24,121 nt of DNA from a virus. Location of the stretch: positions 1 to 24,121 of IMG/VR virus record IMGVR_UViG_3300021092_003150, one strand, 5' to 3'. Under the pieces are notes generated by a model. That model did not search any database, was not told the DNA's origin, and saw nothing but the letters and a program-made list of their open reading frames with translations. This document shows positions 6,310 through 22,072 of this stretch, piece after piece; the stretch's first letter is position 1; each line of letters starts with the position of its first letter. The position numbers and the translations under genes are program-made.

Positions 6310-6678
6310 ATGAATAAATTTGAATCAATATCTACTGGAAACATCGCAAATACCCCCCTCAAGACGAGTAGCCCCATGAGTCCTTCAGAAAAAGCGGCAT
6401 TTGAGCCGCAGACTATGGATGCTATGGTTGTAGAAACTATTGAAGATAAGCTTTGGGAGACAATCAGTGAGGAGCGCTGGACGGACAATCGTCTCGGCTC
6501 CTCCATTGCTAATAACTTCCATCGTGTCACCCGCCGAATGCCGGTACCTGGTGGCTACCTTTACTCGGTAGCCACCTACGCTATGACTTACGTCAGAGGC
6601 GTATCAGATTCCAGCATTACTGAGACAATGCAGTTTGTGGCAGACACTAGTACTACGATGACCAAGTCTAAGAAGTAA
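6310..6678 (+). CDS. Hypothetical protein, 122 residues
   Basis: Starts at ATG 6310 with AAGGAA upstream, 15 bases after the reductase stop, so it is probably co-transcribed with it. The N-terminal 45 residues are rich in Ser, Thr and Pro and probably disordered. The middle (IEDKLWETISEERWTDNRLGSSIANNF) looks helical, followed by a short hydrophobic stretch (VPGGYLYSVATYAMTYV) that is too short and polar for a sure membrane segment. Function not recognised. A perfect 10-bp inverted repeat lies inside it (6550-6576). Confidence 0.75.
   Translation: MNKFESISTGNIANTPLKTSSPMSPSEKAAFEPQTMDAMVVETIEDKLWETISEERWTDNRLGSSIANNFHRVTRRMPVPGGYLYSVATYAMTYVRGVSDSSITETMQFVADTSTTMTKSKK
6550..6576 (+). repeat. 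Perfect 10-bp inverted repeat inside a gene
   Basis: GGTGGCTACC (6550-6559) is followed by a 7-base loop and its exact complement GGTAGCCACC (6567-6576). It would form a stable hairpin in the mRNA of the 122-residue protein, over codons for GGYL and VAT. There is no T-tract after it, so it is not a terminator. One such repeat could arise by chance in a window of this size. Confidence 0.5.
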
Positions 6679-6702
6679 TTTGCACTAAACTCTCAAATAG
6701 GG

Positions 6703-6746
6703 TAAACAGTGGTGTAAGGAGCTAACATGCTTTACACCACTGTTTA
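6703..6746 (+). promoter_or_regulatory. Hairpin presenting the RBS and start codon in its loop
   Basis: TAAACAGTGGTGTAA (6703-6717) and TTACACCACTGTTTA (6732-6746) are perfect 15-base complements. The 14-base loop between them (6718-6731) holds GGAG and the ATG (6727-6729) of the next gene. The right arm encodes the first residues of that protein (about LYTTVY). The mRNA would thus present its initiation site in a hairpin loop, which suggests translational control or mRNA protection. The structure is seen directly in the sequence; its effect is inference. Confidence 0.8.
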
Positions 6747-7164
6747 TTTACAGTACTCTGAGACTAGAAATGACGACGCTGAGTACGAGGAAGACGACGA
6801 CAAAAACCTCGACGAAGACGTAGATGAGTACGAATATGACGACTATGAAAGTCGTTGTTATATAGAGTTTAATCCAATTAAACTATCCGTTAAAGAACCT
6901 CGAGGGTATTCGGCAGAAATTGAACTAGATTTTGAAGCAAACATTGACGACACGTTACATATTGTCATAGTAAGGTATAACAATCACCGAAGCGGTATAC
7001 TTGAAGACTGGTGCGTGGAGCGTGTTTTTTGCAATGGAGACGAAGCAGAAGAGTTCGTTGAAAGGCTTGAGGACGGCTTTTCCAATGCCGAATGCGCAAA
7101 AAATAAAAATGGGGAGTCAATTATTGTAAAAGCTGAAGTATTCAGTATGCAGTTGCATAAATAG
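6727..7164 (+). CDS. Acidic hypothetical protein, 145 residues
   Basis: Starts at ATG 6727 with AAGGAG seven bases upstream. Residues about 14-42 are almost entirely Asp, Glu and Tyr (for example EYEEDDDKNLDEDVDEYEYDDY), a strongly acidic and probably disordered segment. The rest alternates hydrophobic and charged residues (CYIEFNPIKLSVKE, AEIELDFEANIDDTLHIVIVRYN) and looks beta-rich. A DNA-mimic or protein-binding role is conceivable from the acidic segment, but nothing identifies a family. Its initiation region sits in the 15-bp hairpin at 6703-6746. Confidence 0.75.
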   Translation: MLYTTVYLQYSETRNDDAEYEEDDDKNLDEDVDEYEYDDYESRCYIEFNPIKLSVKEPRGYSAEIELDFEANIDDTLHIVIVRYNNHRSGILEDWCVERVFCNGDEAEEFVERLEDGFSNAECAKNKNGESIIVKAEVFSMQLHK

Positions 7165-7169
7165 AAACA

Positions 7170-7259
7170 ATGCATAACCCTAAACTACAATTACTAAAAG
7201 CCATAGGTATCGTATTGTTTTGGGCAGCACTAGTGCTGTCTTTTAATGGTTGGATTTAA
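7170..7259 (+). CDS. Putative 29-residue single-span membrane microprotein
   Basis: ATG 7170 to TAA 7257-7259 encodes MHNPKLQLLKAIG followed by IVLFWAALVLSFNGWI. The layout is a short basic N-terminus followed by one hydrophobic helix, typical of small inner-membrane peptides. It fills most of the gap between the acidic protein and the GIY-YIG gene. Against it: no clear Shine-Dalgarno is visible and the frame is short enough to arise by chance. Function unknown. Confidence 0.4.
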   Translation: MHNPKLQLLKAIGIVLFWAALVLSFNGWI

Positions 7260-7274
7260 TTAAAGCTTATTTTA

Positions 7275-8348
7275 ATGGCAATTATCTATAAAATTACCAA
7301 TACAGTCAACAGCAAAATCTACATTGGCTACACCAACCAAACGCTTAAAAGTAGATGGGCAGAACATTGCAAAGCCAGTAGAAACTTAGCTAACAGAAGG
7401 GGCAACTCAAGATTTATGCGCGCTATTAGAAAATATGGCGTCGCCGCTTTTGTCAGAGAAATTCTTATTGAAGACGAAGACGCAGAAAAATGTTTAAATT
7501 ACTGGGAACCTTTTTTTATTGCTAAATTCAACTCAACAGATCGAGCCATAGGCTACAATAGCACTAGTGGGGGCGGGGTAATGTTCACTTATACCCCTGA
7601 GGTCAAAGCTAAAATGAGTGCTGGAATAAAAGCTAAATGGGCAGATCCTGAGGTTAAAGCTAGACGGAGTGCTGTATCAAAAGCTAGATGTGCAGATCCT
7701 GAGGTTAAAGCTAGACGGAGTGCTGCATCAAAAGCTAGATGGGCAGATCCTGAGGTCAAAGCTAAAATGGGTGCTGCAGTAAAAGCTAGATGGGCAGATC
7801 CTGAATACGTAGCTAAAATGAGTGCTGTATCAAAAGCTAACTGGGCAGATCCTGAATACGTAGCTAAAATGAGTGCTGTATCAAAAGCTAACTGGGCAGA
7901 TCCTGAGGTCAAAGCTAAAATGAGTGCTGCAATAAAAGCTAAATGGGCAGATCCTGAATACGCAGCTAAAATAAGTGCTGCAGTAAAAGCTAACTGGGCA
8001 GATCCTGAGGTCAAAGCTAAAAAAAGTGCTGCATCAAAAGCTAACTGGGCAGATCCTGAGGTCAAAGCTAAAATGAGTGCTGCAGTAAAAGCTAGATGGG
8101 CAGATCCTGAATACGTAGCTAAAATGAGTGCTGTATCAAAAGCTAACTGGGCAGATCCTGAGGTCAAAGCTAAAATGAGTGCTGGAATAAAAGCTAAATG
8201 GGCAGATCCTGAGGTTAAAGCTAGACGGAGTGCTGCATCAAAAGCTAACTGGGCAGATCCTGAGGTCAAAGCTAAAATGAGTGCTGGAATAAAAGAAGCA
8301 TGGCGTAAACGAAAGGAACAAAACAATGTCAATAGTGCCACGACTTGA
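7275..8348 (+). CDS. GIY-YIG endonuclease with 14 C-terminal tandem repeats
   Basis: A 357-residue, probably free-standing homing-type endonuclease. The N-terminal domain (residues 1-100) has the GIY-YIG layout: IIYKI near 3-7, YIG at 16-18, a likely catalytic Arg27 (LKSRW) and Glu78 (NYWEPFF). From residue 107 to 343 there are fourteen consecutive units of 17 residues with consensus ADPEVKAKMSAAVKAxW, resembling the NUMOD3-type DNA-binding modules of such nucleases but far more numerous than usual. The tail (RKRKEQ) is basic. No Shine-Dalgarno is visible before ATG 7275. The gene ends 23 bases inside the co-chaperonin gene and carries that gene's ribosome binding site, as if the element settled next to a conserved gene. 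Confidence 0.92.
   Translation: MAIIYKITNTVNSKIYIGYTNQTLKSRWAEHCKASRNLANRRGNSRFMRAIRKYGVAAFVREILIEDEDAEKCLNYWEPFFIAKFNSTDRAIGYNSTSGGGVMFTYTPEVKAKMSAGIKAKWADPEVKARRSAVSKARCADPEVKARRSAASKARWADPEVKAKMGAAVKARWADPEYVAKMSAVSKANWADPEYVAKMSAVSKANWADPEVKAKMSAAIKAKWADPEYAAKISAAVKANWADPEVKAKKSAASKANWADPEVKAKMSAAVKARWADPEYVAKMSAVSKANWADPEVKAKMSAGIKAKWADPEVKARRSAASKANWADPEVKAKMSAGIKEAWRKRKEQNNVNSATT
7593..8303 (+). repeat. 51-bp tandem repeat array, 14 units, coding
   Basis: Units of 51 bases (the first is 48) encode the 17-residue repeats of the GIY-YIG protein. Variants fall into types: EVKAKMSA, EVKARRSA, EYVAKMSA and single forms such as EYAAKISA. Units 5 and 6 are identical in protein, and the same unit type recurs as unit 11, a sign of repeated slippage or unequal exchange. 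The low complexity also keeps the opposite strand open for a long way. Confidence 0.95.
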
Positions 8349-18934: not shown

Positions 18935-18982
18935 AATAATATTTGCTAAAAAATTGTAAATTATAAATTAGCAAATATTATT
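18935..18982 (+). repeat. Perfect 15-bp AT-rich inverted repeat
   Basis: AATAATATTTGCTAA (18935-18949) and TTAGCAAATATTATT (18968-18982) are exact complements with an 18-base AT-only-rich loop. It begins four bases after the stop of the 228-residue gene, and a run of seven T lies further on (about 18998-19004). It could be a weak, possibly bidirectional terminator or an operator for the portal-region operon. Confidence 0.6.
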
Positions 18983-21877: not shown

Positions 21878-21980
21878 AGGTATTAAATAGGGGGTATTTT
21901 AAGGCCTAAAATAGACCCTTATTTGTGTTATATATATAAGTAGGCTGCAAATGCTTTTAAAAGATAAAGATGAGCTTATA

Positions 21981-21998
21981 TTGCGGTATATATATATA
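21981..21998 (+). promoter_or_regulatory. Putative promoter TTGCGG-TATAYATATATA (copy 1)
   Basis: TTGCGG at 21981-21986 runs directly into a 12-base TA tract ending two bases before the leader helix. The same element stands at 22635-22652. No host-type -35 hexamer is found at the right distance, so this may be a phage-specific promoter that starts transcripts at the base of the leader. The 234-base gap 21839-22072 otherwise holds the terminator and AT-rich sequence. Confidence 0.55.
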
Positions 21999-22055
21999 GA
22001 GGATCTATAGGTATTCCAGCAACTCTGCTGGACCGCCAAAACAATTTAGATCCTT
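21999..22055 (+). promoter_or_regulatory. Structured 5' leader RNA, copy 1
   Basis: Outer helix GGATCTA (22001-22007) pairs with TAGATCC (22047-22053); inner hairpin TCCAGCA-ACTC-TGCTGGA. Between them lie conserved AGGTATT on the 5' side and CCGCCAAAACAAT on the 3' side, where GGT and GCC can form a short extra helix. It begins at the presumed transcript start and ends 18 bases before the GTG of the membrane protein gene. Candidate riboswitch, protein-binding leader or mRNA-stabilising cap; not matched to a known class by eye. Confidence 0.75.
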
Positions 22056-22072
22056 CAAGAAAGAGGAAACAA

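Follow-up and report, generated by a model that had tools for sequence, protein, structure and literature searches.

The start codon of a gene for a 145-aa acidic protein lies at the end of the loop of a near-perfect RNA hairpin within the window, the 24,121-nt IMG/VR virus record IMGVR_UViG_3300021092_003150. Its predicted structure, its conservation among related phages and the computed cost of opening it make repression of translation at the RNA level very likely. The fuller interpretation, that the hairpin is a translation-blocking structure of the T4 gene e/I-TevI kind which is bypassed by RNA without the 5′ arm, is somewhat favoured. Translation-blocking start-site hairpins are known from T4, and the example described here is new.

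The arms of the hairpin, at 6703–6717 (TAAACAGTGGTGTAA) and 6732–6746 (TTACACCACTGTTTA), are 100% complementary and form a perfect 15-bp inverted repeat. The 14 nt between them contain GGAG (6718–6721) and ATG (6727–6729). A G6718–U6731 wobble and a G6719–C6730 pair lengthen the stem from 15 to 17 bp, giving a non-coding 5′ arm at 6703–6719 (+ strand) and a 3′ arm at 6730–6746 (+ strand) within codons 2–7 of the acidic-protein gene. As these two pairs form, the loop (6720–6729, AGCTAACATG) is 10 nt instead of 14. The original prediction placed both the Shine-Dalgarno (SD) sequence and the start codon in the loop of a perfect 15-bp hairpin. The stem, its coordinates and the position of the ATG stand, but the loop is shorter than supposed and the AAGG of the SD sequence AAGGAG (6716–6721) is paired in the stem, leaving only AG in the loop, with a 5-nt spacing to the ATG. 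The ribosome site is therefore hidden, not presented. The same prediction held correctly that the right arm lies in codons 2–7 (it begins with the third base of codon 2 and ends with the second of codon 7) and that a 15-bp match is unlikely by chance.

The 15-bp inverted repeat is not due to chance, as two perfect stems of at least 15 bp with loops of up to 30 nt are found in the window and none in 60 first-order Markov resamplings. The RNA fold of 6680–6770 has a free energy of −29.6 kcal/mol (z −4.25), a stability that was equalled in 0 of 200 shuffles. Overlapping matches in the window to cis-regulatory families of Rfam all fell below the gathering threshold, and the three related loci searched gave none. 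The second perfect 15-bp stem of the window, at 18935–18982, is AT-rich, has an 18-nt loop and no U tract, and is located between two genes. A hairpin resembling it, with some bases changed, is present in the related contig G008 at 24134.

The genes of the window include those for a ribonucleotide reductase large subunit, a GIY-YIG homing endonuclease, GroES, an ATPase (phrog_1297) and a RuvC-like resolvase, together with a weak portal match. Downstream of nrdA, a 122-aa gene (6310–6678, + strand), a possible source of read-through RNA, is separated by 48 nt from the acidic-protein gene (6727–7164, + strand), and the hairpin sits in this gap. The intervening leader (6680–6702, + strand) carries a TTGCAC/TTGCAT-AAA block which is moderately conserved in the closer relatives and diverged in contig L071, and it holds no accepted promoter. 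The acidic protein has no convincing Pfam hit and no PHROG, and its AlphaFold model (pLDDT 64.7) has no significant PDB match. Its homologues occur only in uncultured phage contigs; no relatives were found in cultured phages or in GTDB genomes. Distant blastn matches in cultured phages cover the Asp/Glu-rich stretch only and were set aside.

Directly 3′ of the acidic-protein gene, at about 7170–7260, is a tiny ORF (about 29 aa) with the membrane-like sequence LLKAIGIVLFWAALVLSFNGWI, and similar sequences follow the acidic gene in the relatives, including L071. The GIY-YIG gene (7275–8348) contains many 51-bp repeats (WADPEVKAKMSA units) within its coding sequence. Its N-terminus is near-identical in contig G002, although the neighbouring acidic gene there has only 58% amino-acid identity, and its position is taken by other genes in L017 and L019. 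Together these observations suggest that the GIY-YIG gene has spread recently.

Relatives were sought in IMG/VR, where a single-sequence search gave four contigs and a scan for the exact hairpin gave eight in all. Alignment searches in which the hairpin was not required added further contigs. The set compared consists of eight distinct hairpin-bearing sequences, namely the window and seven others, all from uncultured lake and sea phages. The hairpin is present at the ATG in all eight, with acidic proteins of 46–82% amino-acid identity to that of the window (46% in L071). It is kept nearly letter for letter among distant relatives, with stems of 15–20 bp. The distance from the end of the upstream gene to the ATG is 48–49 nt in six sequences and about 68 nt in L071, which has an extra gene between the 122-aa homologue and the hairpin. 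This insertion leaves the hairpin at the acidic gene, to which it therefore belongs. The hairpin is missing from the acidic-protein homologues of L089/L090/L091 and L092; L091 is nevertheless syntenic, with a homologue of the 122-aa gene upstream and groES downstream. The hairpin is thus a feature of a lineage and is not obligatory for the protein.

The comparison points to selection acting on the RNA, because of frozen codons, a coordinated base-pair change, the pairing of codon 2 and a shift in loop length. Codons 3, 4, 5 and 7 are each represented by a single codon in all eight sequences. Beyond codon 10, by comparison, 2 of 28 codons for invariant amino acids use one codon only (Fisher p = 4e-4 versus the arm, which is indicative only, the rows being related). 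The pair at alignment columns 28/64 is C-G in six sequences and U-A in two, the U-A form being accompanied by a change of Val6 to Ile. If the locus follows the NrdA tree, this double change represents at least two events, since L023 and L025 are sisters on that tree (support 100/99) but differ at these columns and L071 also has U-A; the tree of the acidic protein itself is poorly resolved. Codon 2 is CCT, CTT or TCT (Pro, Leu, Ser) and always pairs with the GG of the SD sequence, which is paired in 8/8 aligned sequences, through G-U in two of them. The loop varies in sequence among the relatives and is 10 or 11 nt long, a 1-base difference between lineages. In slid controls the pairing falls from 98% to at most 59%. 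Across the stem, 13 of 19 pairs are invariant and only one has changed on both sides; for the number of covarying pairs, a control with shuffled 3′ letters was not decisive (229/500). The original proposal that coding and structure are selected together is borne out by the frozen synonymous sites of the arm, the double change involving a codon and the constant pairing of codon 2, and the arms are indeed conserved as pairs in relatives.

These patterns bear on two readings that dispense with RNA regulation. According to the first, the repeat is a template-switch palindrome of no regulatory role, kept by constraint on the N-terminal peptide YTTVYLQY. The T-V/I-Y-L-x-Y pattern is conserved in homologues without the hairpin, as this reading would have it, but protein constraint leaves the invariant wobble bases, the conserved non-coding arm and the matching double change unexplained, and the reading is highly improbable. 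The second is a DNA-level element, in which a phage protein binds the palindrome as an operator or a cruciform. Near-identical palindromic arms of strongly conserved sequence would suit such an element, but the spacing of the arms shifts by one base between lineages, which fits an RNA element more easily than a rigid operator in DNA. Moreover, G-U pairs in the window and L019 break the DNA symmetry while keeping the RNA pairing, and the element is locked in position to the SD and ATG and occurs once per contig. A DNA-level role is accordingly improbable.

As judged from the alignment, both arms are more invariant than pairing alone requires. Twelve non-coding positions of the 5′ arm (columns 29–40) never vary, though the helix would survive G-U or swapped pairs there. 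An undetected promoter or factor acting on the 5′ arm, together with the codons on the 3′ arm and the pairing itself, would jointly explain this excess and is a candidate explanation. The invariance of these twelve positions would also agree with a translational operator, in which the gene is switched through recognition of the double-stranded RNA, either by an RNase III-like enzyme or by a protein of phage or host origin, perhaps even the acidic protein, as this would fix both shape and sequence. Autogenous RNA operators are known in phages, as for T4 genes 32 and 43 (PMC3014915). Those operators likewise have an RNA structure overlapping or adjoining a phage ribosome site, but they are defined by the protein bound, and none is known for the hairpin described here. 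An operator is considered unlikely, given that the near-perfect 17-bp helix already hides the start unaided, that a strongly acidic protein would not be expected to bind RNA and that the syntenic homologue of L091 has no hairpin.

The reading of the hairpin as a translation block is consistent with the energy needed to unfold it. Opening the region from −15 to +13 is computed to cost 21.6–23.5 kcal/mol in six contigs, where the gene medians are 5.8–8.4 kcal/mol. In five of these contigs the hairpin gene has the highest cost of all, and in the sixth it ranks 3 of 145. With this cost, a half-buried SD sequence and paired codons 2–7, the earlier suggestion that the hairpin exposes the start site is not supported. 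The two other roles suggested with it, protection of the mRNA and a target for a repressor, may still apply. An RNA thermometer, whose helix would melt in the physiological range, is not supported either, given the perfect stem and the same opening cost, computed at 37 °C. Between the end of the upstream stop codon and the helix there are 24 nt, so a ribosome terminating there would probably not open the structure. The computed cost falls to about 6–8 kcal/mol only when the RNA starts at −14 or later. Hairpin promoters of the N4-type virion RNA polymerase have a short stem and a 3-nt loop and occur in several copies per genome. This type was ruled out by the 17-bp stem, the 10-nt loop and the single copy.

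In T4, hairpins at genes e, soc, 49 and I-TevI silence early read-through RNA, and short late transcripts escape. The structure at gene e lowers synthesis about 100-fold and the late transcripts are without the 5′ arm (PMC3014915; PMC2988022). The hairpin described here is similar to these and to that of Aeh1 mobE in having its 5′ arm in the leader with the SD and/or AUG region in a helix, in belonging to a gene that lies 3′ of another transcription unit on the same strand, and in that loss of the 5′ arm from the RNA would leave the site accessible (PMC3014915, PMC2988022). Prediction and comparative evidence place the SD and/or AUG in a helix, and the upstream same-strand unit could supply read-through RNA. 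The differences are the perfect stem of 15 bp (as many as 20 bp when G-U pairs are counted), a start codon at the loop's end, an unrelated product, the very strong conservation of both arm sequences, no detectable T4 late sigma factor and no promoter identified here. A hairpin at the gene start is also found in T4 genes 25 and 38, whose ribosome sites are split. In these the helix lies between the SD and AUG and shortens the spacing, whereas the hairpin described here has an SD sequence that is itself partly in the stem and already stands 5 nt from the AUG, which rules out a split SD of this type.

On an mRNA carrying both arms, such as read-through RNA from the nrdA side, 15–20 bp would bury the SD sequence and codons 2–7. 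As a result, 30S subunits would be unable to start and the acidic protein would not be made. The gene is probably silent on long messages until this lock is opened or removed, and the protein would be produced only from RNA in which the helix is absent or undone. The likeliest form of release would be an RNA with its 5′ end inside the 5′ arm, either initiated or processed no more than about 14 nt from the ATG; T4 genes e and soc and I-TevI are precedents. By analogy with these genes, release through RNA lacking the 5′ arm is a reasonable though tentative proposal. It is rather doubtful that the helix is opened or cut by a specialised factor, possibly encoded by the phage, that reads the invariant arms and so activates the gene at a defined point in the infection. 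In a sequence-specific switch of that kind, protein recognition, pairing and coding would together freeze both arms.

No sigma-70-like site was found near the 5′ arm, and searches for a phage promoter motif by k-mers and EM gave nothing convincing and no shared motif. The 5′-arm sequence does not recur elsewhere in the scanned contigs. In the L023/G002 lineage, GATAAATA is located at −27, with a start expected near −13; the other relatives have no match and the motif is not clearly enriched. A T4-type late promoter in the arm is not well supported. The T4 late sigma family (phrog_234) was not found in four related contigs, with T4 itself matched as the positive control, and TATAAATA-like sites match at this position only in the L023/G002 lineage. 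Sites of this kind are modestly enriched in G001 and G009, many of them within a repeated intergenic element. A recurrent intergenic element like TATATTGYGGTATATATA...CTATAGGTATTCCAGCA is found before several genes at about 21900–22072 and in contigs G001, G002 and G003, and is possibly a phage-specific promoter or a small repeat. Contig G001 also has a large open frame at 32011–36816 (L095, L097) related to Gp206 of Salmonella phage Arash (E 1e-132), with a further relative in G010. Gp206 is annotated as an RNA polymerase beta subunit (PMC10585845), and the promoter rules of the group may therefore be unusual. The sigma-like protein of Arash was not found in the relatives, in a search run without a positive control.

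Transcription could also be affected at its end, if the hairpin acted chiefly as an intrinsic terminator of the nrdA operon, or as its attenuator, with a 13-bp core (CAGTGGTGTAAGG/CCTTACACCACTG) followed by TTTATTT and a chance overlap with the next start; a ribosome on the SD might then serve as an antiterminator. A U-rich tract does follow the core in 8/8 sequences, where Leu8 is always TTA or TTG. This tract is partly paired in the predicted fold, however, and the other candidate terminators of these phages are mostly G+C-rich stems with short loops. A terminator would also have no need to hide the SD sequence or to keep codon 2 paired, and this function is improbable for the hairpin.

The conserved block at the acidic-protein gene suggests that start-site hairpins which prevent translation are not peculiar to T4, and that strong selection also maintains one in a separate lineage of large environmental phages. 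At least one member of that lineage has a gene for a relative of Gp206, the RNA polymerase beta subunit of Arash. The timing of synthesis of the acidic protein seems to matter, and the excess conservation of the arms is a testable hint of a sequence-specific factor.
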